Source: a virus | Reading direction: 5' to 3' (one strand) | Length of the DNA stretch: 56,079 bases | IMG/VR virus record: IMGVR_UViG_3300027736_000055 | Location: 1 to 56,079 of that record | Shown here: one piece after another, positions 7,564 to 49,200 of the stretch | Layout: each line of letters opens with the position of its first letter | How positions within the stretch are numbered: the first letter of the stretch is position 1 | Notes under the pieces: model-generated | Database searches by the model: none | What the model was told of the DNA's origin: nothing | Seen by the model: only the letters and a program-made list of their open reading frames with translations | Program-made: the position numbers and the translations under genes

Positions 7564-9571
7564 GATTGATTCTAAAGATTGGTTGATTAACCAGAAACGT
7601 ATACCTCTAGTAGACAGTGCAGAGTATGGAGATTTCTATGATTTCCATGAGGAGATATGTAAGAATGGTTGTATGATGGGAGACACATACATTCCTCCTT
7701 TTCTATATTGGCACCTTAATGTATGGCATACAGAGATAGATATTATAGATGATAGAGGAAGAATATCTCAGAGGTATACAAACCCTTCCTTGCGTGATAA
7801 TGAGTGGGTGGTGGCTAATGAGATAGACAAGGCAGAAAGGGCTCGCAAAGGGCTTGTTATTTTAGGAATCAGACGTTTTGCTAAGAGTGTTATTGAGGCA
7901 TCTTATGTATCACATGGTGCTACATTTGATGAGAACAGCCAAAATATCATTGCTGGCTTGAATGCTCCCGATATAAAACTTATTACAGATAAGATAGATA
8001 AAGGGCTCAACCATTTACCACAAGCCTGGCAGTGGCAAAGGATTGAGGATAATTGGAAGAACCAAGTGACACTGGGAATTAAGACAAGAGATGGTAGACG
8101 TATGCCATTCTCACAGATATTAATACGTAACCTTGATGAAGGTAATAATGAAGAAGCAATTGCTGGTAGTAAGCCTAGAAAGTTAATTATAGATGAGATT
8201 GGTAAAGGAAGTTTCCTTCGTGGTTTACAAGCGGCTATTCCAGGTTTCACTACACCCTTTGGCTGGGGTTGCTCACCGATTCTTACAGGAACTGGTGGGG
8301 ATATGAAGAAGTTTATGGACGCCAAGCTATTAATGTTTGACGTAGAAAACTTCAACTTCATGACCTATAACAATGCAGAAGATGATAAACGTGTACACGG
8401 ACTATTCATCTCTCATAAGTTTAGAATGGAGGCTAAGTATGAAAGTTCACTTGGTGCATATTTAGATAAGCCAGTAAAGAATGATCTTCACAAGCTTAAG
8501 ATGCTTGTAAGTGATGAAGCATTAGCAACAAAGATAACAGAAGATAACCTTAATAGACTTAAAAAGTCAGGAGATAGAGTTGCTTATTTAAAGGAGAAGA
8601 TGTACTATCCACAGAAAGTGGATGATATATTCTTAAATGAAGATAGTAACATATTTGATATAGAGGGAGCAAAACGACAAAAGACCAGACTCCTATCACA
8701 GGAGCGCACTGGTACACCTGTTGTGCTATATGATGATGGCGATGGTATAAAGCATGAGTTTACAGACAAATTGCCCATCACCAACTTCCCTCTAAAGAAC
8801 TCTGATAATAAGGATGCTCCTGTAATTATATATGAGTTTCCTATAGAAGCACCACCTTATGGATTATATGTAGCAGGAGTCGATCCATACCGTCAAGGTA
8901 AAGCTGCATATTCTACATCGTTAGGAGCTGTGTATATTTACAAACGTATGCACTCTATAGCTAGTGAAAAATATCAAGACATGTTTGTAGCTTCATACTG
9001 CGCACGTCCTGATAAGAAAGAAACCTGGGAGGAACAAGCAAGGATGCTCATTAAATATTACAATGCAAGAGCACTTGTAGAGAATGATGAGATATCATTC
9101 ATTGAATACATGAAGTCTAAAGGAGATGCGCATTATTTAGAAAAGCAACCTGATTGGTTAAAAGAAGTGGTGCCAAATACTACCGTTAGACGTGACTACG
9201 GTGTACATAGATCTGCAGGTAAGATTGTAGATTTCTTACATACGTGTCTCAAGACATACTCTGAGGAGCCTATTATTACTGAGAAGGATGACGATGGAAA
9301 GATACTCAGTGAAACAAAAGGTATGGTGAAGATTTTTGATCCTGTACTTCTTGAAGAAATGATTCAGTACAATGAAGAAGGTAACTTTGACCGTATCATT
9401 GCAGCTGAATTAGCAATAGCTCAGGCTATGAAAATGGATCCTATTATGGGAAGAGTGGGAGATAAAGGTGATATACGTATTCAATCGATGCACCTACCTA
9501 AGAAGAAAAATAAATTATTTGTGGGAGGCGGTAGCTTATTCCCAGGACAAAAACATAAACTGTTTACATAA
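7550..9571 (+). CDS. terL: Terminase large subunit, 673 aa
   Basis: This is the packaging motor ATPase and headful nuclease. The N-terminal ATPase shows a Walker A variant GIRRFAKS at residues 106-113 and a Walker B segment LIIDEI with D215 and E216. The C-terminal RNase H-like nuclease begins with AGVDPYRQGK (candidate metal ligand D445) and continues with ALVENDEISF and, further on, acidic residues near the end. Length and motif order fit crAss-like terminases. It starts within the preceding gene and its stop shares a base with the portal ATG (TAATG). The N-terminal 95 residues hold a short region with Trp and His residues (YWHLNVWH) typical of phage terminase lids. Confidence 0.9.
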   Translation: MELLKIDSKDWLINQKRIPLVDSAEYGDFYDFHEEICKNGCMMGDTYIPPFLYWHLNVWHTEIDIIDDRGRISQRYTNPSLRDNEWVVANEIDKAERARKGLVILGIRRFAKSVIEASYVSHGATFDENSQNIIAGLNAPDIKLITDKIDKGLNHLPQAWQWQRIEDNWKNQVTLGIKTRDGRRMPFSQILIRNLDEGNNEEAIAGSKPRKLIIDEIGKGSFLRGLQAAIPGFTTPFGWGCSPILTGTGGDMKKFMDAKLLMFDVENFNFMTYNNAEDDKRVHGLFISHKFRMEAKYESSLGAYLDKPVKNDLHKLKMLVSDEALATKITEDNLNRLKKSGDRVAYLKEKMYYPQKVDDIFLNEDSNIFDIEGAKRQKTRLLSQERTGTPVVLYDDGDGIKHEFTDKLPITNFPLKNSDNKDAPVIIYEFPIEAPPYGLYVAGVDPYRQGKAAYSTSLGAVYIYKRMHSIASEKYQDMFVASYCARPDKKETWEEQARMLIKYYNARALVENDEISFIEYMKSKGDAHYLEKQPDWLKEVVPNTTVRRDYGVHRSAGKIVDFLHTCLKTYSEEPIITEKDDDGKILSETKGMVKIFDPVLLEEMIQYNEEGNFDRIIAAELAIAQAMKMDPIMGRVGDKGDIRIQSMHLPKKKNKLFVGGGSLFPGQKHKLFT

Positions 9572-12153
9572 TGGCAATCATTAGATATACCAAAGATGCA
9601 ACCATCAGGTACGCCTATCTTAATATCTTTCCTGATCAGTTCAAGACTGAAAAAGAGAAGATGGATGAAAGTTGGATCAAGAATACAATGGATTACTTTG
9701 CTAACAAGGCATATGCTGAGTATGTAAAGAATCGAGATACGTTTGTTAAAAACTATGACTTGGTGAAGGGTATACTTCGTATGGAAGACTTCTATCAAGA
9801 GCCAGAGGTAAAAAGTTTTACAGATATGCTTACGGCAGATCTTGGTTTGCCTGGTTATGTAAAACATTATTCTATTCTAACAACTCCTCTTAATGAGCTT
9901 ATTGGAGAGATATCAAAGAGACCTGATTCATTTCGTGTTAAGGCATTTGATGATGATTCTCGTTCTGAGGAGCTTGAATTTAAGACAAGTATTCTTCAAG
10001 AATTTGTTTTAAATGAAGCCAAGCAAAAGATTGCACAAAGTATGTTAATGCAAGGTCAGGAGCCAGATGAGGAAGAAGTGCAAAAAATGGCAATAGAAAA
10101 AGTTAAAGACGAACTTGATAACTATACATCTATAGCTGAGAAGTGGGGAAACCATATTCTTACAGCACTCAAAGCTGAGTTTAATACTAAAGAGAAATCA
10201 GAGGATGCGTTCCGTGATCTTGGTATTACAGCTCGTGAGTTCTATCATATATATGAGGATAACTCTAAAACAGGATTTAATGTTGAGGTGGCCAATCCAA
10301 AGAATACTTGGTTCTTAACTACACCAGATAGAAAATATATCTCTGATCCTACAGGGCGTGCACAAGGAGCATATGCTGCTGGCTTAGTACAAGTGATGGA
10401 GCTATCTGAGATTATTGAAACATTTACATGGCTTGCAAAAGATGAGATTGATCACTTACGTTCATCATTACAAGATTATGGACTTATAAATGTTCGTGAA
10501 TCTAATCTAGGCAATCCTAATGCTGCTGATGGTATTGACTCTGTACAATATGATACATTTGATCCTCTTGTTCTTCAGACACGTATGATCATTGAATCTG
10601 AGATGAAAGAGAATGATGATGGACTAAAAGATTTCTTAGGACTTACATCAAATGTGTCTTCATTTGGATACAAATATGTAGTGGTGAGATCTTACTGGAT
10701 CTCTAAGAAAAAGATAGGTAAGCTTATTTATACAGATGAAATGGGCAATGAGCAATCTACGCTTGTTGATGAAAGCTATAAAAGTGGCACCATACCCACT
10801 CAAATATCATTAGAATGGGGATGGATTAATCAATGGTATCAAGGTGTAAAAATTGGACCAGACATCTATCACATCTCTCCATACAAGTTATTAAACTACT
10901 GCCCTATCATTGGGCTAGTACATGAGATCAAGAATACTGAGGCTAAGAGTATTGTAGATATGATGAAGCCGTTTCAGGTGATATACAATGTTTGTATGAA
11001 CCAATTATATAAGCTTCTTGAGAAAGAAGTAGGTAAGGTTCAGCTTATGTCATTAAGACATATCCCTATTCCTAAAGATGGAGATGCACAAGATGCTCTT
11101 GATATATGGGAAATGGAAGCACGTAATAGAGGAGTGGTATTTATTGACGACTCTCCTGAGAACTTAAAAGCTCCAAGTTCATTCAATCAATTTACAAGTT
11201 TAGACCTTACACGTACGCAGGAGATTCAATCTCGTTACACTCTAGCTCAACAAATGAAGAACGAGTGTTGGGAGCTTATTGGTATGTCTAAGCAACGTTT
11301 AGGTAACGTGTCAGCTTCTGAGACTGCTACAGGTACAAACAACGCTGTAACACAAAGCTACACACAAACAGAGTCATTATTTGTAGCACACGAATATGTA
11401 TTAGGACAGCTGTATCAGTCAATGATTGATGCAGCATTATATACAGAAAGTCAGAAACCAGAATCTACCATTTCTTACATTACGTCTGAAGGAGAGAATG
11501 CGTTTGTTCAAGTGAATGGATCTGAACTTAAGTTCCGTGATCTTAAGGTGTTCTTAACTAATCGTCCAGAAGATAAACAAATGTTCCAAGAGCTTAGAGC
11601 ATTATCTCAAGCAGTTCTTCAGAATGGTGGAAGCTTACATGACATCATTGAATTGTATAGCACTAACTCTGTACGTCAGATGAAGAAAGTGTTTAAGACT
11701 CTTAAAGAAAGACAAGAGCAGTTACAGGATCAACAAGCAAAACAACAACAACAACAGATAGATCAACAACAGCAACAAGCACAAGCTGCCTTACAACAAA
11801 CTTCTCAATTACAAGAAGAGAAAATTGCACATGATGATTATCAAGCAGAACTAGATAGAATCAACAAGGTACAGATAGCAATGATTGCTGCTGAATCTAA
11901 AGCAGGGCCATTATCAGATGTTGATACATCTGGCACTGCAGATGTTCTTGAGATGACTAAACTTACTGCTGATCAGTCTAATGCTGCTAAAGATTATCAA
12001 ACTAGATTAAGAGAGATCCAAAATGAGAGTCAAATGAGCAGAGAAAAACTAGCTGTAGAGAATAGAAAGATTGACGTTGACCTTAAAAATCAAGACAACG
12101 ATCTTAAGATAGCTAAGATAAATGCAAGCAATAGAGGGTCAAAAAGTAAGTAG
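9571..12153 (+). CDS. Portal protein, 860 aa
   Basis: Directly follows the terminase with a one-base overlap, the usual place for the portal, and is long, as in crAss-like phages. The N-terminal half mixes helices and beta segments; the central region contains a long helical stretch typical of the portal stem and clip (IVDMMKPFQVIYNVCMNQLY). The C-terminus has a Gln-rich run near residues 715-750 (KQQQQQIDQQQQQ) and a charged coiled coil, likely the barrel or a region reaching into the capsid. It forms the dodecameric DNA gate at one capsid vertex in known phages. Identification rests on gene order, length and general character rather than a single motif. Confidence 0.8.
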   Translation: MAIIRYTKDATIRYAYLNIFPDQFKTEKEKMDESWIKNTMDYFANKAYAEYVKNRDTFVKNYDLVKGILRMEDFYQEPEVKSFTDMLTADLGLPGYVKHYSILTTPLNELIGEISKRPDSFRVKAFDDDSRSEELEFKTSILQEFVLNEAKQKIAQSMLMQGQEPDEEEVQKMAIEKVKDELDNYTSIAEKWGNHILTALKAEFNTKEKSEDAFRDLGITAREFYHIYEDNSKTGFNVEVANPKNTWFLTTPDRKYISDPTGRAQGAYAAGLVQVMELSEIIETFTWLAKDEIDHLRSSLQDYGLINVRESNLGNPNAADGIDSVQYDTFDPLVLQTRMIIESEMKENDDGLKDFLGLTSNVSSFGYKYVVVRSYWISKKKIGKLIYTDEMGNEQSTLVDESYKSGTIPTQISLEWGWINQWYQGVKIGPDIYHISPYKLLNYCPIIGLVHEIKNTEAKSIVDMMKPFQVIYNVCMNQLYKLLEKEVGKVQLMSLRHIPIPKDGDAQDALDIWEMEARNRGVVFIDDSPENLKAPSSFNQFTSLDLTRTQEIQSRYTLAQQMKNECWELIGMSKQRLGNVSASETATGTNNAVTQSYTQTESLFVAHEYVLGQLYQSMIDAALYTESQKPESTISYITSEGENAFVQVNGSELKFRDLKVFLTNRPEDKQMFQELRALSQAVLQNGGSLHDIIELYSTNSVRQMKKVFKTLKERQEQLQDQQAKQQQQQIDQQQQQAQAALQQTSQLQEEKIAHDDYQAELDRINKVQIAMIAAESKAGPLSDVDTSGTADVLEMTKLTADQSNAAKDYQTRLREIQNESQMSREKLAVENRKIDVDLKNQDNDLKIAKINASNRGSKSK

Positions 12154-15130: not shown

Positions 15131-15274
15131 GCGAGCCTAGTGCTCGTCTCCAGCAATCGCTGGCTTTGATCAAGAAGTCTCCCACAACTCCTCCCCTCCG
15201 TGTGGGAGCTTCTTGAATTTCAGGGTGAAAGGATTGGGTTTCCTAGTCGCTAGGTCTTTCGTTAGACGTCACCC
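15131..15274 (+). ncRNA. Highly structured RNA region after the capsid gene
   Basis: About 144 nt of unusually GC-rich sequence fold into consecutive elements: hairpin A (GCGAGC/GCTCGT, 15131-15147), hairpin B (CCAGC/GCTGG, 15150-15163), a long hairpin C of 16 bp with one bulged U (15170-15186 with 15201-15216) closing a 14-nt C-rich loop, and a multi-branch element D closed by GGGTGA/TCACCC (15223-15228 with 15269-15274) containing CCTAG/CTAGG and TCT/AGA hairpins. No U run follows hairpin C, so simple termination does not explain it. It may stabilise the capsid mRNA, be a processing site or be a separate RNA. Confidence 0.6.
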
Positions 15275-15276
15275 AC

Positions 15277-15311
15277 AAAACCAATTATTAAATAAAACTA
15301 CATATGGGTAA
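15277..15311 (+). repeat. Leader repeat, copy 1 (before HNH gene)
   Basis: AAAACCAA, an A/T stretch, AAAACTACATAT and GGGTAA occur in this order here and again at 15599-15636. The copies flank the HNH gene and each includes a start codon followed by GGTAA, so the first three codons (Met-Gly-Lys) are the same. Confidence 0.65.
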
Positions 15312-15600
15312 GTGGAATACTTATGATATACAAAAGAAAAGTAGAGATAAATCTATTGTTCGTAATAAACTATATGTAAAAAATTATTTAGAAAATAAAG
15401 CTTGCATTGATTGTGGAAACTCAGATATTAGAGTTTTAGAATTTGATCATGCGAGAGGAGTTAAATTATATCACGTATCTTATATGATTCAAAAAGCATA
15501 TAAGCTTGATCTTATTAAAGATGAAATAGAAAAATGTGATATAAGATGTTGTAACTGTCACAGAATAGTTACACAAGAACGAAGAATTATTAATAGTTAA
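15304..15600 (+). CDS. Free-standing HNH endonuclease, 98 aa
   Basis: The frame shows a complete HNH zinc-finger nuclease: C34-x2-C37, EFDH with catalytic H49, and CDIRCCNCHR with C82, C85, N84 and H86. It would cut DNA and is probably a homing endonuclease that spreads its own gene between phages. It sits between capsid and downstream virion genes, its base composition is more A-rich than its neighbours, and it is flanked by a duplicated leader, all signs of insertion. It shares its first three residues (MGK) with the next gene. An alternative role in DNA packaging, known for some HNH proteins next to terminases, is less likely here because of the location. Confidence 0.85.
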   Translation: MGKWNTYDIQKKSRDKSIVRNKLYVKNYLENKACIDCGNSDIRVLEFDHARGVKLYHVSYMIQKAYKLDLIKDEIEKCDIRCCNCHRIVTQERRIINS

Positions 15601-15636
15601 AACCAACAATAAATTAAAACTACATATCATGGGTAA
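15599..15636 (+). repeat. Leader repeat, copy 2 (before 322-aa gene)
   Basis: Second copy of the leader found at 15277-15311. It differs by a few base changes and a 3-nt insertion (CAT) that moves the start codon: ACATATGGGTAA in copy 1, ACATATCATGGGTAA in copy 2. Confidence 0.65.
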
Positions 15637-16597
15637 AATAGGTAAAATCTCTACTATTAAAAGAGAGTTCAATGACTCTTTAATTCAAACAATGCAGAGC
15701 GAGCTCTCTAAAAGAGGCATGTCACGTATTCCAGGAACTGGTGTATTCAAGTATCCTTACAAGGAACTTGGTGGTAAATACCGAACAGGATTAGATCCAG
15801 ATGCTGCTTACATTAAGCGTATTCTTGATACTACAGGAAGAGAACTTGAAATCGAACGTGTAACTAAGCTTCGTGAGAAGTTAGAAGCAGAGTTAGGTGG
15901 TATTAACTTAGGACCAAATGCACCATTTTGGAATGCAGGTTTATCTACTGGTTCAGAAGATAACACTCACGTTCAACCAGTTAAGTTGATGGATGGAGAT
16001 AACTATTTTGACTTCACTAATCCTTTTAAAGAGTTAGAGTTTGCATGGTTAAGAGTTCATCCAACTATTGCTTCTAGTTATGAATCATGGGTTAGAGGTG
16101 ACTTTCCTGCAGAGACACAGTTCTACGTTGTAGACGATGAGATTGAAAGTGCTATTGTTTACAAGAAGAAACAAGTAATCAATAAAGCAATCATCAAGTT
16201 TGATGCAATGAGTATTGAGAAGAAACGTAAAGTAGCAAGATTACTAGGCTTACCTATTAGCGATGAAACTAAAGAAGAAGTAGTCTACAACTTAGTAGAT
16301 AACATGTTAAAACAATCGGAGTTTAAAGAAGGTCAATACCAAGGTTTATCTCCAGTTGAAGTCTTTACAAGATTTGCAGATATGAAAGATGACTTGTTAG
16401 CTGTAAAAGATTTAGTGAAACAAGCATTAACACATTCAGTTTACCGTAAGAAACCTAATGGTAGAATCTACATGGGAGAACTTGAAGTGGCAATAGATGA
16501 AGAAGAATTAGTTAAGTTCTTATCAAATGAAGATAATCAAGACGAGTTACTAATTCTAGAACAAAAAATAAAAGGTAAAAAACTCGCAGCAGTATGA
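15629..16597 (+). CDS. Virion-region protein, unknown function, 322 aa
   Basis: Begins MGKIGKISTIKREFNDSLIQ. The N-terminal 150 residues look globular and include GGKYRTGLDPDAAYIKRILD; the C-terminal half is helical with a segment that resembles a SAP/LEM-like helix pair (MSIEKKRKVARLLGLPISDE) and might touch DNA. It is coupled to the following gene through an ATGA overlap, so the two products probably act together. The place after the capsid gene suggests a capsid-associated or head-completion role, but I cannot name a family. The initiation site is the second copy of a duplicated leader. Confidence 0.6.
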   Translation: MGKIGKISTIKREFNDSLIQTMQSELSKRGMSRIPGTGVFKYPYKELGGKYRTGLDPDAAYIKRILDTTGRELEIERVTKLREKLEAELGGINLGPNAPFWNAGLSTGSEDNTHVQPVKLMDGDNYFDFTNPFKELEFAWLRVHPTIASSYESWVRGDFPAETQFYVVDDEIESAIVYKKKQVINKAIIKFDAMSIEKKRKVARLLGLPISDETKEEVVYNLVDNMLKQSEFKEGQYQGLSPVEVFTRFADMKDDLLAVKDLVKQALTHSVYRKKPNGRIYMGELEVAIDEEELVKFLSNEDNQDELLILEQKIKGKKLAAV

Positions 16598-20026: not shown

Positions 20027-21034
20027 ATGAATGTCTTAATAACGCTTACTTCAGCAGGAACGGATACAGGACCCTTTAACCTTTATTCAAATGTGGATAA
20101 CTACACAACTGCTTTTGAGACCGACATCTCTAAAGGGATATTAGTTGCTGGATATACAAGTACAATAGTTCCTCCAGGAACTTCAGCTATTCGTGTTAAG
20201 TCAATAGGTATATGTACAAACTATGTTGATATAACATTAACTGTACCTTCTACCACAACAACTACAACAACTCGTGCTGCTACAACCACCACTACAACTA
20301 CGGCAGTAGGTAGTCCAACTACCACTACAACTACTACAGCACCTGTAGGCCCAACTACTACAACAACCACTACACCGTACGTGGGTCCTGCTACAACTAC
20401 AACTACCACTACAGCGCCTGTAGCTCTAACAACTACAACTACTACTACTACAGTATACGTAGGTGCTGCTACAACTACAACTACAACCACTATAGCAGCC
20501 ACTACTACTACTACCACAACTAATGTTTTTGTTAGTTGTCAAGAATGGAGAAATGATACAGCTGAAGAAGCAATTATAACTTACACTCCTTGTGGAAGTA
20601 GCACTCCTGTAAGTGGCTATACTTTAGCTGATACATCTAGTGTATGCGCGGTTTATGGTTCTATAACTGTTACATCAGGTGGTGCCTTAACATTAGTTGG
20701 AGCTTGTTCTGCACCAGAGCCAGCTACAACAACTACAACAACTACTGGAGCAGCTGTAGGTACAACAACTACAACTACTACCACTGCTTTAGTATATTAC
20801 AGTTTTCCAATAACAACAGGTTATGGAGATTCTGCATCAGCATGTGGTGATTCATCTACTAATATGAGTATTTATGGTAGTTCACCGTCGTTTTTAAGTA
20901 ACGCTACATTCTATAATGATTACACTTTACTTAGTCCATTTGATGGTAGCAATTTCTATTACAGCAATACAAGTAATAATGAGTACGTACAAATTAGTAG
21001 CATCGGAAGTCAGACTGCAGGTGGTAGTTGTTAA
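20027..21034 (+). CDS. Poly-threonine linker protein, likely adhesin or fibre, 335 aa
   Basis: Begins MNVLITLTSAGTDTGPFNLY. After an N-terminal beta domain of about 70 residues come seven or more tracts of 6-8 threonines (residues about 75-165), spaced by short segments such as APVGP, PYVGPA and VYVGAA. A small domain with two or three cysteines follows (CQEWRNDTAEEAIITYTPCG), then two further Thr tracts and a C-terminal domain (FPITTGYGDSASACGDSSTN...). This beads-on-a-string design fits an extended surface fibre holding small binding domains away from the capsid. Thr tracts could be glycosylated. A terminator follows. The family of the end domains is not named. Confidence 0.65.
   Translation: MNVLITLTSAGTDTGPFNLYSNVDNYTTAFETDISKGILVAGYTSTIVPPGTSAIRVKSIGICTNYVDITLTVPSTTTTTTTRAATTTTTTTAVGSPTTTTTTTAPVGPTTTTTTTPYVGPATTTTTTTAPVALTTTTTTTTVYVGAATTTTTTTIAATTTTTTTNVFVSCQEWRNDTAEEAIITYTPCGSSTPVSGYTLADTSSVCAVYGSITVTSGGALTLVGACSAPEPATTTTTTTGAAVGTTTTTTTTALVYYSFPITTGYGDSASACGDSSTNMSIYGSSPSFLSNATFYNDYTLLSPFDGSNFYYSNTSNNEYVQISSIGSQTAGGSC
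20250..20520 (+). repeat. Threonine-codon tandem repeats
   Basis: About 270 bp of ACA/ACT/ACC triplets in blocks interrupted by short unique spacers. A further block lies at about 20725-20788. The codons are mixed instead of being one repeated triplet, which would slow slippage. Confidence 0.8.
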
Positions 21035-21077: not shown

Positions 21078-21109
21078 CTCCTAGGGACACATTGTCTCTA
21101 GGAGTTTTT
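21078..21109 (+). terminator. Strong intrinsic terminator after the fibre gene
   Basis: CTCCTAGGGACA (21078-21089) pairs with TGTCTCTAGGAG (21093-21104, one G-U pair) around a 3-nt loop, followed by TTTTTATTATT. A smaller hairpin CCTGT/ACAGG precedes it. Confidence 0.9.
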
Positions 21110-37228: not shown

Positions 37229-40200
37229 ATGGCAGAAGAATTAAAACCAGTTAATCTACCAGGTTACCAACCTACTGAGTATACTCCAGTAGAAACAATG
37301 GTTCCTACTTTAAAGCCTACAGCAAGCTATGATGAGATTTTCAACAATCTTCTAAATCAGTCTGCTCCTAAAGACGCTAGCGCTATGCCTACTGTTTCTT
37401 CAGGAGATATAAACATGTCTGGTAGATATCCTAAATTCTTCACAGGATTAGATAATGAAGAGCTGTATGCTCAGAACCAATCATTTGCAGAAAAAGCATT
37501 TAATGGTGTAACAAAGATGGCAGGTATTGCTACATCTACATTTATCAATGGTACTGTAGGTATAGTTAATGGTATATATGAAACTTCCAAAACTGGTAAG
37601 TTTAATTCCTTCTATAATAACGATCTTAGTAATTCATTAAATGACTTTCAAGAATCATTAAATGATAAGTATGCGTTCTATAAAACAGAACGTGAAAGAA
37701 ATGGTAACTGGTGGGAACCATCTAATCTATTAACAGCAAACTTCTTATTTGATAATATTGTCAGCAACATGGGCTTTGCTCTAGGTGCTGGTGCTGCTGG
37801 TTTGGTTACAGGTGGACTATTAGGCACAGCATTGAAAGGTATAGCTAAGGCTGCTAGACTTACATCACTTGGTGTAGATAGTGCAGCTGCTGCAGAAAGT
37901 ATTGTTTCAGAAGCTGCAGGATTAAGTAATGCTGAAGCATTGTCTGCAGTTAACAGTAGATTGAATAGTTTATGGACTGCTACTAAATCAAAGATAGGCG
38001 CAGGTCTTCTTAAATCAGATAGAGCTATCACAGCTCTTACAGCAACCGCAGGTGAAGCAGGATTGGAAGCATTAAATAATTCCATCCAGTTCAGAACTCA
38101 AATGATCCAAGACTATAAGAAGAATTATGGTGTGGATCCAGAAGGTGCAGACTTAGAAAGGATTAATCAATATTCAGAATCAGTGGGTAACTTTAGCTTT
38201 GCTGCTAATACTGCATTGCTATCTGTAACTAACTATATACAGCTTCCTAAGATATTCTCTTCATCCTTTAAATCTGAGAAGGGTATATTAAATGGTGTTG
38301 CTAGACAAGCAGGTGAAGTTGTTTCTACATTACCTCAGAAAGGTTTTGGTAAGTTAATGTATGGAGGATATAAAGCTGCAAGTGCATTGTTTAGTCCTGC
38401 AGAAGCATTTGAAGAAGGTGCACAGTTCGCTATTCAAACTGGTACACAGAACTACTTTGCTAGAAAAACTAGAGGAGAGAAATCTACAATAGCAGATGAT
38501 GCTATTGGATACGGTATCAAAGAAGCATTGACAAGTGATGAAGGTTTATTAAACATCTTCACTGGTGGTGTATCTGGTGGTCTTATGACTATGGGACTAG
38601 TTGGTAAGAAAGATGGTAAGATAGCGTTTGGACAAACTGGTACATTAGGAGAAAGAGGATTGTTTGGATATGGTGGAGAACAAGCTAGACTACGTGACGA
38701 AGCTATTCCTGCATTACAAAAAACTAGACTTAAGCAAAACTTAATAGCTGCTAATAATAATATAAACACAGCTGAGTCAATTCAAGAAGATAGAAAAGAT
38801 GCAATCCTTGCTAATGATAAACTAGAGTCTAAAGATTTAGAGTTTGATTATGCTCATACATTTATTAGTACACGTTTAAAATACGGTGCTGAAGAAATGG
38901 TATATGAGGAGATTGATGAGATGCGTCAAGAAGCACTCACTGATTTTACTAAGTTAAAGAAAGAAGGTGTTACTGGCCAAGCTGATGATCAACAATCTTT
39001 CTTAGCTCGTTTAGACTTAGTAGAGGCTCAAACAAAACATGCTTCTCAACTTCAAAAGGCACTTGATCTTAAGTATTCTGGATTAGCTAATAAAGAAGGT
39101 AAGCGTCTTTACTCTGATAATACTATTGACAAGCTTGTATATGCTGCAGCTAAAGTTAATGATTACAATCATCGTATACCTCAACTATCTGTAGAGCTAG
39201 GTAAGTATAACATCTCATTAGAGAATATACTTGGAAGAGTAGTTCGTGGAGAAGATGTTACATTAGAAGAAGTTAATAAAGAGATTGCTGATCAACTTGC
39301 TGAGTACCAAAAAACTACACAGTTAACAGATACAGAAATTGCAGATGCTACTCAAGAGGGTATAGACTATTTTGAACTTGGATTACGTAGAAGACAATTT
39401 ATTGGTGAGTATAATGAGATCTTAAAGAACCCAGAAAACTTTGTAACCCCAGAGGAAGAAGATCTTGAGAAGACTACAGAAGAGAAAGCTGCTGAAAAGA
39501 AAGCTGCTGAAGAAGCTGTAAAGGGACCCACTGTTAAAATAAAGACACAGAGAGGTGATACAGAAGTTGAGATAGGTAAAGAATACTTTGTAGGTAACAA
39601 ATCCCAAACACCAAAAGGTAATGCTTTTTATGAGTTTACAAAGTTCACTGTATTAGCAGTTAATGAAGATGGTAATATAAAGGTACAGTTTCCTGATGGC
39701 AAGATGGGTGTTGTAGCTAAAGATGGTTTTGCCACTTACAAAATTGGTAAGGTAGAATCTGTACAAAACAATAAGAAAGCATTATTCTTTATAGAGAATG
39801 CAAACAATGTATATTCATTTAACTTTGGTAAAGCCAAAGGTGGTAAGGTACAAGGTAGACTTGAATATGATGAAGGTAAACTTAACTTTGTATTTAAAAA
39901 TGCTAAAGGTAAGATTGATAGTATTGAGCTACATGGCAAACACTTTGTTGCAAAGAAAGGATTCAAACAAGCTATTGTTGAGAAAGTAGGAACTCTTACA
40001 AAAGCAGAACAAAAGGTTCTTGATGATTTTACTAATGACAAGACTCCAGATCCTTCTGTATTAGAGAAGGTTGCTACTGTTGCAGGTACCATTGAAGTTA
40101 TCTTTGATGAGACTTTAGAAACATTAGAAGATACTAAAGATCTTATTCAACAAAAAACAGAAGAGCTTGGTAAGATTGAGAAACAGTTAGAAGAACTAGG

Positions 40201-43200
40201 TAAGAAGGTAGAAGGACCTAACACTGTTACAAGCAAAACAAAACGATTCAAAGCTACAACACATAGAACATTGCAATCGATCAAGCAACTAACAAAGATG
40301 CGTGATCAGTTACGTAAAGAACTATTCAATCTACAATCAGAACAAGAAGAACTAGAGATACGTCTAGAAGACTTAATTGTCACTGCAGAAGAGTTACAAG
40401 ATCAACCAGGTAACTACAGAGAGTTATATGACTCTATGAGAAAGCAACGTGAAGGTTTAAATGATGCCATCTTAGAAACTGGATTACAGATCAATAAGCT
40501 TTCCAACCTAATTGATATGGTTGAGAATGTTATTGAGAGTGCATATAAAGCTGCTAAGTCATTAATAGAAAAGTTCTTTGATAAGTATCCTGGAGTACCT
40601 TTAGATAGAGACGGCATCATTGCTTTCTTAAACAAGAACTTAGAAGATACTAAAGCTGAGAAAGCTATCACCCCTACGTCTGAAGCAGAGAAGATTCTTC
40701 CATACACTGCTATAGCTGCTGCATTATATGATGACATCAATCAACTAGATGCAGATCTTGCACAGATAGATGAAGCTGATGTTACTCCTAATGAGCCTAT
40801 TGCTAAACAGTTAAGAGATGAGTTACGTGCTCTTCAAGAAGAACTATCTAACTACGAGAAACAACTATCTGCTAAAGAAGGTACACTTAAGAGATTACGT
40901 GAACTATATAAACTACACAAGACAGAAGCTGATAAAGCTAGAGCAGTACAACTTGAGAAAGAGTTAAAGATCAATGAGGTGAAGGAGCAATTCCTTGGAA
41001 CTATTGATAACTCTATTCCCACTACCAATCATGATTCAAACTATGAACCAGATGATAAAAAGAGCTTACTTAATATTATCCGTGCTTCTATTGCTACCAC
41101 TAAAGCATTCCTTAAGAAAGATGAAACTTTAAGAGAGCATCATGTTCGTGCTAATAAGTTTGGTACACGTTTCGAAAGCTTCCGTAACAAAGACAACATA
41201 TACGGTGTACTAGTAAGTAAAGGTAACGGAGAAGATCGTAAAGGTAATGAAGAAGAGTTAGGTATGACAGGATTAATTGACCACATAGGTGGCAATGATC
41301 GTACTGTTGTATTAGTGATGGTGGAAGAGCAGAGCGATGGTTCTTTACTTCCTGTAGATGAGAATGGTAAAGCTATTGTAAGCTCAGAAGATAGAATCAA
41401 CAAAGGTATATACCAAGTACGTCCTGATCCTAAACTTCGTTGGAGTAATGGTGAAACCATGTTCCGTGAAGAAGATAAACCAATAGAAGAAGAAGTTAGA
41501 AAGGTATATGCTAAAGAGATTGATTACATATTAAACAATCCTTCTCTTAATAAATACAAGATAACTCCATCGTTTGGTAATGCTGACTATGTAACTCATC
41601 CAGATCAGATCAATCCAAAGACTAATAAACCTATTAGAAATCGTCAGGCTAAGACAACTCTTAAGGCTGCAGGATTAATTAAGGATGATGAGAAGAATGA
41701 TGATCTTCGTGAGAAGAAGTTAATATACATCCCTACAACTAATGATCGTGTAGAGAAAGGATCTACTAGCTACACTGACGCATTAGGTAGAGTGTTCTTA
41801 GACTTAGGTAATGCTTATGTTAAGTTAAAGAATGCTCAGTATAATAATGCTAAAGCCACGGCTATATATGATGCTGTATTACGTCTTGCTAGTATTGGTA
41901 AGATAAAAGGTAGTACAGAAGCTAACGACTTAGTTTCTTGGTTACGCACTGTAGTATATTGGGGTACTCCTAAAGAGAAGCTTTCTTACAATAGCTTGTT
42001 CTTTGAAGATACAGATGATGGATTAAAGTTATTCATCTCTGGTAAAGGAAGTAACATTCCATTTACACCAACATCTATTAAAGCAAACAAAGATAATATC
42101 ATTGCATTGCTTGAAGAGATGTATCATAATGTTAACTCTCGTCAAGCTACATCTGATTCAGAATATAACAAACCTTACACTGAGATTATAAGTGTATCTG
42201 AAGGTGGTAAGATGGTAACTCGTCAATGGCCTAACTATCAGTCATACTTAATGTCTGATAAGAACCCAGATGGATCTCCTAGAAACATCGATGAGATTCC
42301 TTTAACCACTGAGATTAAACCATTAGAGAACGCTGAGGATTCAAACAGAGAAGGTATATACTTTATCATGGATGATTTAAACATCGATGAATATAGTAAA
42401 GCAATAAATAAGAAACAACCTAAGAAAACATTAGGAACAAAAGCTGCTAAAGAGACAGTAACCACTGCACAGGCAAAAGCTGCCTCTACTGCTGTTGCAT
42501 CTGAGTTTACATTAGATGGTGAGACAGACAACACTGTTTCAATGTTCAAGGGTGAGGTAGAGGTTAAGTTCAAGGTTAATCAAGATGAGTTTTATAATGA
42601 AGATGGTACAGTTAACATTGAGTCTGTTGAAGTAGTTAAAGGACAGAAGTTCTTAAATGACAAATACAACAGTGATAATGATAAGATATTAGCAACTATC
42701 AGAGGATTCATTGCTAGTAAGGTTAAACCTCAAGTGGATGATTATCTATCTGGTCCTATAGAAGAACAAATTGCACCAGCTCCTGAACCCACTGAGTTTG
42801 TATTAGATGGTGAGACATCTAATCTTCTCACTATGTATAAGGGTAAAGTGGTAATCACATTTAAAGTAAATGCTAATGAGTTCTATGATGAGAACGGTAA
42901 TGCTGTTATTGAAGAAGTTGTAATTGTATCAGGATATGATGAGTTACAGAAAAACTTTCCAGAAGCAGATAAAGATGATCTCATTGCAAGAGTTAGAGGA
43001 TTTGTTGCTGGTAAGGTTAAACCTTTTGTAGATGCAGAGTTAGAGAATAAAGAAGACATCCCACAAGAACCTATAGTTAGTTCTGCTACTCCTGATGAGG
43101 TGAGTATCGAAACAACTGATGAGATGGATGATATTGATCCTAACAATCTACCTACCAAGGAATATCGTATGGCAGTATTAAATGCTAACGAAGAGAAACT

Positions 43201-46200
43201 TGAAAGAGAGAACTGGGATGAGATTGAGAGCTGGTTAAAGACAACGTTCCCTAACATTCCTGTATACCGTGTTAAGAGAATGATTCAAGCGTCTAACGGT
43301 AGACAAGCTTGGGGTATGTACAAAGATGGAGCCATCTATGTATATGAGAACGCATTGGCTGGTACAGCATATCACGAGGTGTTTGAAGCTATTTGGGATA
43401 CATTAGTAACTCCTAAAGAGAAGTCACGCATCTATAAAGAAGTTAAAGCTAGAGAAGGTTCTTTCTTTGATCGTGAGACTGCTAAGCAAGTTAAGTATTC
43501 CACTGCTACTAATCATCAGATAAAAGAAGCTCTTGCAGAAGAGTTAATAGACTATGTAAGAAAAGGTCAAAAGCCTGCAGGTCCTGCTAAGTCATTCCTT
43601 GAGAAGATATTTGATGACATCATCAACTTCTTTAAAGAGATGTTCTTTGGTGAGAAGGGTAAGAACAATACAGAGAAGTTATTTGAGAAGATAGGGAATG
43701 GATACTACGCACAGTATAATCCATATCAGTCTAAGTTATCGTTTGCTAAAGCTGGCTTTATTGATATTGACAATGCTATTGCTAATGGTAATGAGGAATA
43801 TCGTTACGCCTTGATGGGCTTTACAGATGTTCAATGGGATGACTTGATGCAACAGATGACATACTTTACAGTATCTAACTTGTTGTGGGATCCTAATAAT
43901 CCTGACAAATCTATCTTTGATATCAACGTTAGAAAGAAGGCTGATCTATACGATAACTTAAAGAGTAACGTATTAGAAGAACTTAAGATGGCACGTGCTA
44001 TCTTGAAGAAAGAGAAAAGCACTCCTGCTACAGAAGCTTCTATCAAGAACTATGAATCATTATATCAGAACATCAAGAACAATTGGGATGCTATTGTAGA
44101 AAGTCACACTGACTATCTAATCCCTTATGAGATTGACTTTGATGAGAATGACAATGCTATCCTTCGTGATGAGAACAACTCTGGTAAGGAAGATTACAAG
44201 GATGCTAACAAGATTGATACATTTAGAAAAGCTAATACAGCTATCAAGTTATTCTTGGCAACTCTTCCTGTTGTAGATGCAGAAGGTATTACCGTGATGT
44301 CCACTGTAAACGGTCCACGCTTACAGCAGTTATCTAAGGTGAAGAACGACATACAGAACGTTGTAGATAAGTCTCGCAAACCTGATGAGATGATTGGTAA
44401 CATCAAGAAGCTTGCTGAACAAAACATCTCTTATAAGCTATTAGCTGAAAGGGTTACGTTTGGTATTAAGAACTTCTCTCTTGATAAGATGACTAATGTA
44501 GGTCAGACTAGTTTAATTACTGGTTTATGGAAGACGTTTGCTAAAACAAACCCTGAAGTTAAATATGTTTACATCCTATCTAATGGTGATGTAGTGATTG
44601 ATGATTCTAACTTCTCTACAGCAACAGATCAATCTATGCTTGACTTAGAAGCAGACTTGACAGTAGCATTGAGAGATCCTAGTAACAAGCTATTCACTTA
44701 CGACGCTAAGAAAAAAGGTGGAGGATACTTTGCAAACGCTGATTCGTTAGGACCAAAGCCTGATACTATTGCTGGAATGATTACATTCTTGAAGAGATTA
44801 GGTATAGAGTTTGATATCAAAGATATAGAGAAACGCCCTCAGTACAAGACTCAGTTCATGGAAGCTGTTGGTGGTATGCATGATAGTTTAAAAGAAGCTA
44901 AGAAGGTAGCAACTATTAGTGGTAGGTCATTAGAACTAAGAGGTAGATTAAGAGAGATAGCTCAGATTGAGGCAATGATTAAGAACCCAGAGTTTGATTC
45001 TACACACTATAACATTAATGGTGAGCTCACTCAAACGTTCATTGGAAGGAATGCACATAGTGACTTGTTTGATATGTTATCACAGATCAAGAATCTTGAT
45101 GAGCTACAAGGTACTCGTTATGAGTATTTAATGAACAATGCTGATAACTTCTCTCAGAACTCAGTTAAGATGGCAGAGATGTTCAATCGTAAGACTGGAA
45201 ACATTACAGTTGGACGTAGTCCAATGTTAATGAAGAATGGTTATTTCGATGGTATCTTTAACTCTGCTAAAGGTAAGAGAGTATCAGCATCTAAGATGGA
45301 CTACAGAGATCGTTTAGTTGCTCAGATAAACCTTGCACTTAAAGGATACTACTTTAACTTAGTTCCAGGTGATGCAGGAATGGAGCACATGTCTAACATG
45401 GGTAACTCTGTAGATCTTACTAAATCAATCTCTGCTCAGTTAGAGATGGCTAAACCTATCTTTAAAGGATACTTTATTGATGAGATAAATGTATCTAGAG
45501 AAGAAAGAAAGATTGTTATTCCTGAAGATAGTGGAAGAAAGAATACAGACTTACGTTTCTTAAAAGGTATCCTTGATAATTATGAAAAAGGTTTGCATGA
45601 TAAGATAGTTGCTGAGGGTAACCGTCAACTTTCTCCAACAGAACTTTATGACAAGTATGCTGATAAGATAGATGCAGCAATAGCTGAATATTTTGAATTT
45701 AGAGCTGCTACATTGTTAGAAACAATGGAAGACTATAACTTAGTTGAGCAGGAATCAGAGAATGTATTCAATGTAGAAAACATTGCATTTGGTGAAGACT
45801 TATCAAAAGATGAACTACAATCTAAACTACATTCACTTGTATTAAACTTTGCTATCAATAATATTGAGATGCATAAGCTTGTATACTCTGATCCTTATTT
45901 CTATAAAGATGAGTTGAAGCGTGTTAAGAACTTTAACTCACCTCACCAAGCATTGGCTGCAGGATCTGCTAATCTAAACACAGCGTTTGATAAAGTTTGG
46001 AATAAGCTTTATAAGACTGATAAGAAAGAAACTGGTGGATATAATAACATAGGATACACTGACTTCTTTAATGATAGTCTTGTATCTGCTACTCTTGAGG
46101 ATGTAAAAGCTGTTGCTGATATCAAAGGTCCTTGGGGAACTTACGGATCATGGGATGAAGGAGACGGTGGTGGAATGATTATGTTCCAAGGTCTACGTAA

Positions 46201-49200
46201 GCTTCGTATTGCTGCTGGTGAATGGGATAGTAACGACGAACGTCAGTATGTTTATGACATAGCTTGGGAGAAGGTTGATAAAGATCTATATGATCAATTA
46301 TCTGTAGAAGAAATAGAAGCATATGATAAAGGTAATCCTAAAGTTCAAAGTGCTTATACTCCTTACAAGCCTGTTGCTAATGGTAACAAAGATGATGGTA
46401 AGAAGTATAACGATATAGTTCTAGACAAGTTTGCATTGTTCCCTATATCATATAGGATAATGAAAGAGTTTAACAAGGAGGCAGATGTCAACTATGTTAA
46501 TCTATATAATAGAATGCAGTCAAGTGGTGTAGACTATGTAGTGTTTGGTAGTGGTAGAAAGGTAGGGTCTAATACAAAACATAAGCTATATGATAAGGAT
46601 GGAAACTTTGTAACTGATTCTTTTGGAACAGTGGAAGATGGTGGTATCAGTATCATACCTTTAACTATCTTGAGCAATCAAACAGACGTTCCTACTAAAG
46701 AAACATCTACTGTAACTACAGGATCTCAAGCGGTTAAGTTAATGACTCTTGATTTAATGGAAGGTGGTGTACCTGTTGACTTCATGCGTGATTCTGACTT
46801 TACTACTAAGTATCAAGAGTGGGTTGACTTAAGTGAAGATGAAAAACTAGAGACATCTAAGTTATATAAAGAGATAAAGAATAACCAAAAGATCGTTGAA
46901 GCCCTTATCAAAAATGGTATGGAGGACACAATGACTATATTGGGTATCACTAAAGAAGATGGCAAGTATGTAATCAAACCTGAGAATCGTACAAAGGCTT
47001 ACGATACATTACGTAAGGAGATGTTGAGGAGAGAGGTTAACAGCAACGTTATTGATTCGTTAGCAGGATTCTTGAATGGTGAAACAATCCTAGAAGCTAC
47101 ACCTGCTTACAGACAAATCAAGAACATCTTATACTCTATTGCTGACAAGAACATTGTATCTCGTACAATCACTGGAAGTAAGAAAGTACAGATGCCTTCT
47201 ACGCTATTAGAAACTCTACGTCCTAAGGAAGTAACTATCAATGGTAAGACTGGATATACATCAGACTACTTAAAGTTCTATGATCATCCTGGTCCTGACG
47301 GTAACCCTATTCGCGTATGTGAAATAGCAGTTAGAAGATGGTTTAAATCTGATAAGACAGATGATGAACTAATGGACTACTTCAATAACACTGAAGAAGG
47401 AAAAGCTCAACTAGCTGCTATCACTGGTATTGGATTCCGTATCCCTTCACAGAAGCAGAACTCTATTGACGTATTTAGAATAGCTAAGTTCCTACCTGAA
47501 GAGATGGGTGACGTAGTTATTATTCCTTCAGCATTAGTTAGAAAAGTAGGATCTGACTTTGACATAGATGCATTGTCTATGTACTTTAAGAACTTACGTA
47601 GAGGTAAGAATGGATATCCTGAAGTAATTAAATATTTAACTGCTGACAACTCTACAGTTCAAGAAAGATATTACAACTGGGTGATTGATAATGCTGATAA
47701 AGATGTAAGTAAATACATTCGGTTCTTAGCTAAAGGCGAAGTTGCTAAACTAAGAGAGCAGTTCAAAGAACAATTTAACAGCTTAAGCGAGAGCTATAAA
47801 ACTGCTGTAGAAGAATCAAAAGCTTTAAACTATGAAGAACTATTAGATAGCTACAAGTCTATTAAGCAAAAAATTAATGTTGCTCAAGATGGTTACATGG
47901 TAGAACTATTTGCACAAGGTTCTAAAATATTTAGAAAGCTAAGTGATGATCTTAAAGATAAAGTCTTTGAATTAAAGAAAGAGATGTATATGCTAAACAT
48001 TAACGGTCCTGAAGAAATCAGACGTTATTTAGCACTAGCTACAATCTTATCTAACCAATATTCTACATCTGCTCAAGATAAGAAGATATTGAACGATATG
48101 AGTTCCATATATCAAGAGGAGCTAAGAGTATTAGGTGCCACTCAAGAAGAGATTGATAAAGCAACTGCTGAAGCTCTTGCTGCATTCAGAGAAAACAAAT
48201 CAGCTTCTATCAAAGCTATTGGAGAAATGGTAGCTAATTTCAAACTAAATGAAGTCATACCACAACAAGAAGAACTCATCAATGCTCAGAAACTAGAGTT
48301 TGCTACAGAACTAGCAGAAGCTTCTGAATTAGATTCATTATCTAAGTTTGAGAGTTATCCTATTGAGATGCAGAATACTAAGAAGGCGTTACAGAATGCA
48401 TACATTCAGTCTTCTGAGAACTTAGTATCATCTGAAGAGAACTATGAGCAGTTAATTAAACCTAACTCTGCTGATGTATTAATCAAGTTAACAAATGAGT
48501 TGTTATCAGATAGAGGTAAGGTTAAACCAGATTATTCTAAGGTGGATACAATGTTAGTGTTAGAAGACATGGCACGTATCAGATACAACTTAGTTACTGG
48601 TAAACGATTAATTGGTATTGCAGCCCAAGCTCAAACTAACCACTCATTAAATCAACGTTTGTTATTCACTGTAGATCCTTCTCGTAGAGATAGGATTCCA
48701 GTAGAAGATAGAAAGTGGATGGGTGATGCTGAGATTAAGTTTAAGAAGTTTAACAGTGTGTTTGTTAATGGTGAGAAGAGATCTACATTATCCATGATTA
48801 AGGATGCTAATAATGACCTATACATCTCTGATGTTAATGGTATAATTATTGACGGCTCTGTGGATATTTCTAAGGATGACTGGTTGATGCAGATGGGTGC
48901 TACTCCTCAAACGATAGCTACATATCTATTCTTAATCAAAGAAGGAGTTCCTGTAAAAGATGTAGTTTATTTCATGAGTCAACCTATCATCCGTGACTAC
49001 CTAACAAAGTTAGAGAGTAAAGGATACTCGTACTTATTTATTGAGGACTATGTTGAGGAGTTAGAAGACTCAACCAATTATAATAAGAAGTCTAGTGCAG
49101 TGGTTAATAGTATTCCTTCTTTTGATAAGCTTCAAGAGATGATTAGAAAGGATAAGGATAAGTTAACTAATGATGAAGCAGCAATGCAACGTTTCATGTT

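Follow-up and report, generated by a model that had tools for sequence, protein, structure and literature searches.

The DNA analysed here is a stretch of 56,079 nucleotides (positions 1 to 56,079 of the IMG/VR record IMGVR_UViG_3300027736_000055; hereafter the window) from a crAss-like phage, whose major capsid protein (MCP) matches the Pfam family 'Crassvirus major capsid protein'. The gap between the stop codon of the MCP gene and the next gene of the conserved order contains a structured RNA element (15131-15274), which folds at -57.5 kcal/mol with a z-score of -4.4, a stability that none of 200 shuffles attained. The fold is made up of four consecutive units, namely two small hairpins, a 16-bp stem-loop (HP2) and a three-way junction (3WJ) with the closing stem P1 and the arms P2 and P3 (Table 1). 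An earlier note on this DNA had described the same units, including the 16-bp stem with one bulge and a 14-nt loop and the GGGUGA/UCACCC junction, and folding recovers each of them in place. Among the 150-nt segments scanned along the + strand of the entire 56 kb, the two that cover the element were the most stable; however, about five other 150-nt segments of this strand have z-scores similar to or lower than that of the element, and its stability by itself is therefore not decisive. The lowest z-scores on the + strand were located in the region 880-1440 (-5.3 at 901-1050 and at 1276-1425), where the genes lie on the - strand.

Stronger evidence for the fold comes from the base changes observed among relatives. 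For the 3WJ, 60 dereplicated sequences were aligned with MAFFT without the use of structure, and shuffles as well as slid registers served as controls. Standard pairs were formed by 92.3% of the pair cells, compared to 70.9% in the shuffles and 37-46% in the slid registers. Likewise, doubly changed cells (283 versus 82.8) and the covariation score (0.613 versus 0.209) clearly exceeded the values from the shuffles, and 19 of the 22 pairs displayed a compensatory double change. Sequence kinship inflates the shuffled controls, but the slid-register control, which keeps this kinship, also clearly fails. The window shares in the covariation, since its P1 core GGGUGA/UCACCC represents a double change relative to the common AGUG/CACU, and P2 was found to be longer than in the automatic fold, with three more covarying pairs below its bulged G (columns 10-12 with 37-39; for example AUG/CAU, AAG/CUU and GUG/CAC). 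HP2 was strongly folded in all 60 relatives (mean z -5.0), and in the one subtype covered by the pair counting (subtype B was left out due to a MAFFT alignment that was too gapped) 100% of the cells were paired, including 6 doubly changed pairs. Compensatory stem changes in relatives, which the earlier note had set beforehand as a test, are hence present by a wide margin in both the 3WJ and the HP2 subtype. From these comparisons, the predicted secondary structure of the element is established by covariation. The same alignment is informative about the strand: A-C and C-A cells would be wobble pairs on the opposite strand, and the occurrence of 91 G-U or U-G cells in the 3WJ versus 13 A-C or C-A cells indicates that selection acts on an RNA in the capsid direction, and not at the level of a DNA site or of antisense RNA.

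The most conserved part of the element, which had not been singled out in the earlier note, is formed by unpaired bases of the 3WJ. The bulged G of P2 is identical in 60 of 60 sequences, and the P3 hexaloop UUCRNU starts with UU in all 60 as well, while its third position is C in 57 of them and U, which could still pair with G, in the rest. Since the bulged G and the UU of the hexaloop lie on neighbouring arms at a similar distance from the junction (3-4 pairs), a tertiary contact similar to that between the T-loop and the D-loop of tRNA is suggested. A UUCR loop together with a nearby unvarying G indeed recalls this contact of tRNA and invites comparison with bacterial Y RNA and tRNA-like modules, although the hexaloop of the element lacks one base in comparison and varies at its fifth position. 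A contact between the bulged G and the UUCRNU loop, or of these two with a protein, is probable and might give the junction its fold; both sites hardly vary, which places this contact outside the reach of covariation. A kissing-loop dimer formed via the UCGA of the hexaloop was considered and dropped, as the loops UUCAAU, UUCGCU and UUCAGU are not palindromic. A tRNA search made no call for the element. The presence of a gene for a TROVE-domain (Ro60) protein in crAss001 had raised the idea of a Y RNA, but this identification was not kept: whereas crAss001, the positive control, has TROVE, neither the window nor any of 16 long clade contigs contains it.

Table 1. Features of the window around the major capsid protein gene and the structured RNA element.
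Feature	Position	Strand	Evidence and remarks
P22-like portal	9571-12153		upstream of MCP
MCP gene, 517 aa	13571-15124	+	Pfam PF23898 Crass_capsid, E 2.8e-28; PHROG 11589 major head protein
Variable 5' hairpin 1, GCGAGC/GCUCGU	15131-15147	+	fold; 0 to 2 such hairpins among relatives
Variable 5' hairpin 2, CCAGC/GCUGG	15150-15163	+	fold; variable among relatives
HP2, long conserved hairpin	15170-15216	+	16 pairs, bulged base 15178, 14-nt C-rich loop ACTCCTCCCCTCCG 15187-15200
3WJ	15221-15276	+	fold, covariation; placed by covariance model R1 at 15222-15277, 34.3 bits, E 7e-7
3WJ closing stem P1	GGGUGA 15223-15228 with UCACCC 15269-15274	+	two outermost consensus P1 pairs lost in the window
P2 arm	15230-15251	+	loop 15239-15241; unvarying bulged G 15249 (G in 60/60)
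P3 arm, GUCU/AGAC	15254-15267	+	hexaloop UUCGUU 15258-15263; family consensus UUCRNU
A-rich leader copy 1	15277-15305	+	before HNH gene
HNH endonuclease gene	15304-15600	+	insertion outside RNA element; PHROG 2255, E 1.7e-20
A-rich leader copy 2	15599-15627	+	before next gene
Next gene of conserved order, crAss001 gp33 homologue	15629-16597	+	26% identity, E 5e-5; PHROG 16383

The location of the element is as well conserved as its structure. In a first set of 80 IMG/VR loci, retrieved by the MCP protein alone (94-96% identical), the architecture of HP2 plus 3WJ was present behind MCP in every locus. The gap between MCP and the next gene measured 142-245 nt in these loci, or approximately 470-520 nt when it contained an HNH gene, and comprised in this order 0-2 variable hairpins, HP2, a short linker (e.g. 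AAACUA), the 3WJ and an A-rich leader. When the covariance model R1, built for the 3WJ, was applied to 48 further loci that had been collected with a more distant capsid as the starting point of the search and had not been used in building the model, 46 of them matched with E < 1e-5. Each of 20 long contigs contained one strong R1 copy per genome. A second, weak R1 match in the window (40762-40873) fits the model only with an insertion of 53 nt and falls within a large open reading frame, and it was treated as chance. The window also holds an open reading frame of 4614 aa (37229-51073), beside others of 1620 and 1645 aa; such giant proteins are typical of crAss-like phages. A junction pattern based on one common P1 sequence retrieved 74 matching stretches from the whole viral collection, all of which adjoin MCP and/or the next gene, while a broad pattern (GCNNNNCCCTTCGATGGG) had many matches in unrelated-looking contigs. 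L283, L307 and L272 contain divergent versions of the element that, as judged by eye, retain the hexaloop UUCGAU in P3. L272 (JACIXZ010000023.1) was the one contig obtained upon searching bacterial genomes with MCP; its capsid is 89% identical, and its filing under a Tissierellales metagenome-assembled genome is likely a binning error, or otherwise a host clue. In Rfam 15 no family reached the gathering score in the window, and relaxed thresholds resulted only in chance-level matches in the window and two relatives. Likewise, our literature search found no description of a capsid-downstream RNA of crAss-like phages. Across the clade the MCP protein is about 95% identical, in comparison to only 58-67% identity at third codon positions and about 70% for the next protein, which points to very strong purifying selection on the capsid.

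In the window the element is directly followed by an HNH gene, which might indicate an RNA that belongs to this mobile gene, either intron-like or HNH-associated. However, the element is present in loci without any HNH gene, a different HNH gene lies on its other side in L123, and no Rfam match was obtained, and we consider the probability of such an origin to be close to nil; an HNH-associated or intron RNA was rejected because the HNH-free loci contradict it. Of 200 other loci, 10 carry a relative of the HNH gene of the window. It invariably follows the RNA, and in these 10 loci as well as in the window the RNA stays beside MCP while the insertion comes between the RNA and the next gene. The two A-rich leader copies flanking the HNH gene (29 nt, 86% identical) represent a real duplication, and the element lies outside of it, as the earlier note had proposed. 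The HNH gene starts with the same leader and first codons (ATGGGTAAG/ATGGGTAAA) as the following gene (15299-15320 versus 15621-15650), as if the insertion had copied or carried the start region of its target gene. An apparent HNH remnant with a duplicated leader was found in L057-L059, and in Flavobacterium phage FpV4 (L157, 5477-6259) an HNH gene is located right after MCP; together with L123 these cases point to repeated landings of HNH genes beside the capsid gene. Across the loci compared, the RNA is independent of the HNH insertions; this, like its strand and its occurrence as a single copy at a fixed location, is shown by comparison. The assignment of the element to the capsid gene, suggested earlier, is borne out by its capsid-sense strand and its position beside MCP in every genome seen, irrespective of HNH genes.

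The HNH insertions also bear on a second explanation, in which the element would serve as a leader-type regulator of the gp33 homologue, with a protein (perhaps the nucleic-acid-binding product of the gene itself) or another ligand binding to the 3WJ and controlling translation from the start codon about 25 nt further on. The distance between the 3WJ and the next start codon is usually short, approximately 25-30 nt, which agrees with such a role, as do the annotation of a double-stranded-DNA-binding domain in crAss001 gp33 and a weak resemblance of about 59 residues of the modelled next-gene product (pLDDT 77.5) to part of RecA (fold search, best E 0.2). This resemblance is consistent with the labels 'RecA' and 'dsDNA-binding' given to the post-MCP gene in other crAss-like phages; sequence searches with MCP and the next-gene protein retrieved no solved structure. 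In contrast, HNH genes with a leader copy of their own are inserted ahead of the next gene in the window and in 10 other loci and distance it from the RNA, an extra hairpin lies between the RNA and the next gene in some loci (L067), and the element contains no ribosome-binding sequence that could be hidden. We regard regulation of the downstream gene as rather unlikely.

Neither HP2 nor the 3WJ is followed by a U run in the window or in the relatives listed, and despite their GC-rich hairpins they consequently lack the mark of an intrinsic terminator, in line with the earlier judgement that the element in the window is not a plain terminator. An ordinary intrinsic terminator is found in the same window at 21078-21104 behind the gene 20027-21034 (12-pair stem, 3-nt loop, TTTTTATTAT tail), which makes the missing U run informative. 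The corresponding slot between MCP and the next gene was also read in crAss001, DAC17, the uncultured Crassvirales cr4_1, cr7_1, cr53_1, cr55_1 and cr130_1, Azobacteroides phage ProJPt-Bp1, Dulem virus 41, FpV4, Lbo-JY46 and the L273-L280 group, and the element was found in the slot of none of these distant Crassvirales. Instead, crAss001 and DAC17 possess a hairpin with a T run behind it, and slot hairpins, some with T-rich tails, occur in the five uncultured Crassvirales, Dulem virus 41, L276, L277, L279 and L280. These hairpins share with the element the slot between the same two genes and a high GC content, but they measure about 70 nt compared to about 145-200 nt for the element, which differs from them further by the absence of a U run, its two conserved domains and a 3WJ with conserved unpaired bases. 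As far as the slots compared here show, the element occupies a position at which other Crassvirales often have the capsid transcript ended or punctuated, and its distribution among relatives suggests that it may have taken the place of a terminator during evolution. It might still act as a terminator or pause site without a U run, which via Rho or a phage factor would tune the read-through from MCP into the downstream genes. Its position in the slot of the intrinsic terminator of crAss001 and DAC17, its GC-rich hairpins and its C-rich, G-poor loop are in favor of this mechanism; however, the absence of the U run extends to the relatives listed, and the covariation and conserved unpaired bases of the 3WJ exceed what an intrinsic terminator needs. 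We judge a function of this type to be fairly improbable.

The loop of HP2 was of interest because of its composition. In 39 long HP2 loops (e.g. that of the window at 15187-15200, L018 and L001) C accounts for 52% and G for 2% of the bases, and two words recur, CCUCC in 23 and UCCCACC in 20 of the 39 loops compared to 8.6 and 0.7, respectively, in within-loop shuffles, counts that include related loop sequences. The earlier note had pointed to CCUCC as the complement of GGAGG. The enrichment of this word above shuffles stands, but the idea remains weak given the kinship of the loops, the many members whose short HP2 loops lack CCUCC and the equally marked UCCCACC; an anti-Shine-Dalgarno role of the CCUCC loop was rejected as not general. 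The recurring words in a nearly G-free loop, along with the strong structure and the unvarying unpaired bases, would suit a trans-acting small RNA that is cut from the capsid transcript, or ends in it, and acts on host or phage RNA, a host protein or packaging. Such action would not need the strict synteny with MCP seen in every genome, the loop words are not universal, and no promoter evidence was found, leaving this explanation improbable.

On balance we favor, with a confidence just short of even, a function as a cis-acting 3'-boundary element of the capsid mRNA, exerted through processing and/or protection against exonucleases. The element would perform a terminator-related job in the terminator slot, but after transcription. 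HP2 is a candidate for double-strand cleavage, its stem of 16 pairs being long enough for RNase III, and HP2 and the compact 3WJ could set the abundant capsid mRNA apart from the genes that follow and shield its 3' end against 3'-to-5' exonucleases. As an outcome, capsid protein would be made in excess over the downstream protein. A more specific version, in which the 3WJ would be a new tertiary-folded RNA class whose T-loop-like UUCRNU hexaloop docks on the bulged G, providing the most abundant late mRNA with an exonuclease-proof or protein-recruiting 3' end in place of a terminator, is possible but rather unlikely. In crAss001, the middle and late genes, MCP being one of the latter, presumably rely on the host RNA polymerase, which together with the ordinary terminator at 21078-21104 makes the missing U run behind the element informative; the passages searched in the study of crAss001 make no mention of the site between MCP and the next gene (PMC8375218). 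Several observations weigh against a boundary function: the short spacing between 3WJ and start codon fits a leader element equally well, an unrelated HNH gene lies between MCP and the RNA in L123, and the slot lacks a strong hairpin in FpV4 and Lbo-JY46, showing that punctuation at this site is not universal. Moreover, the unvarying unpaired bases suggest a task more specific than that of a passive barrier.

Comparison with known systems places the element among RNAs of related architecture or position. The packaging RNA of phi29 is likewise a phage RNA with a three-way junction, but the element is located at the 3' end of the capsid gene, has no Rfam match and displays no evident complementary loop pair. 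The lambda sib site triggers decay of the mRNA of the upstream gene, whereas protection is favored for the element, and there is no evidence of homology between them. RNase III takes part in this retroregulation of lambda int. Control of the mRNA of a phage gene by a structured site 3' of it is cited in PMC5371410. A role in the 3' untranslated region has also been proposed for the L17 downstream element (RF01708), a conserved structured RNA behind a coding region (PMC2864571). The latter belongs to another gene in other organisms, and the Rfam search gave no match to its sequence or structure.

Structured elements behind coding regions are of a known kind but rare in bacteria and their phages, and the RNA described here provides a clear case of a conserved one behind a phage coding region. 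Its unvarying bulged G and hexaloop make the fold directly testable by mutation. In crAss-like phages, which are very abundant, hundreds of capsid subunits have to be balanced with a small number of copies of the products of neighbouring genes, and a covarying single-copy RNA without Rfam match, situated in the terminator slot at the capsid boundary, represents a concrete and testable candidate for setting this balance.
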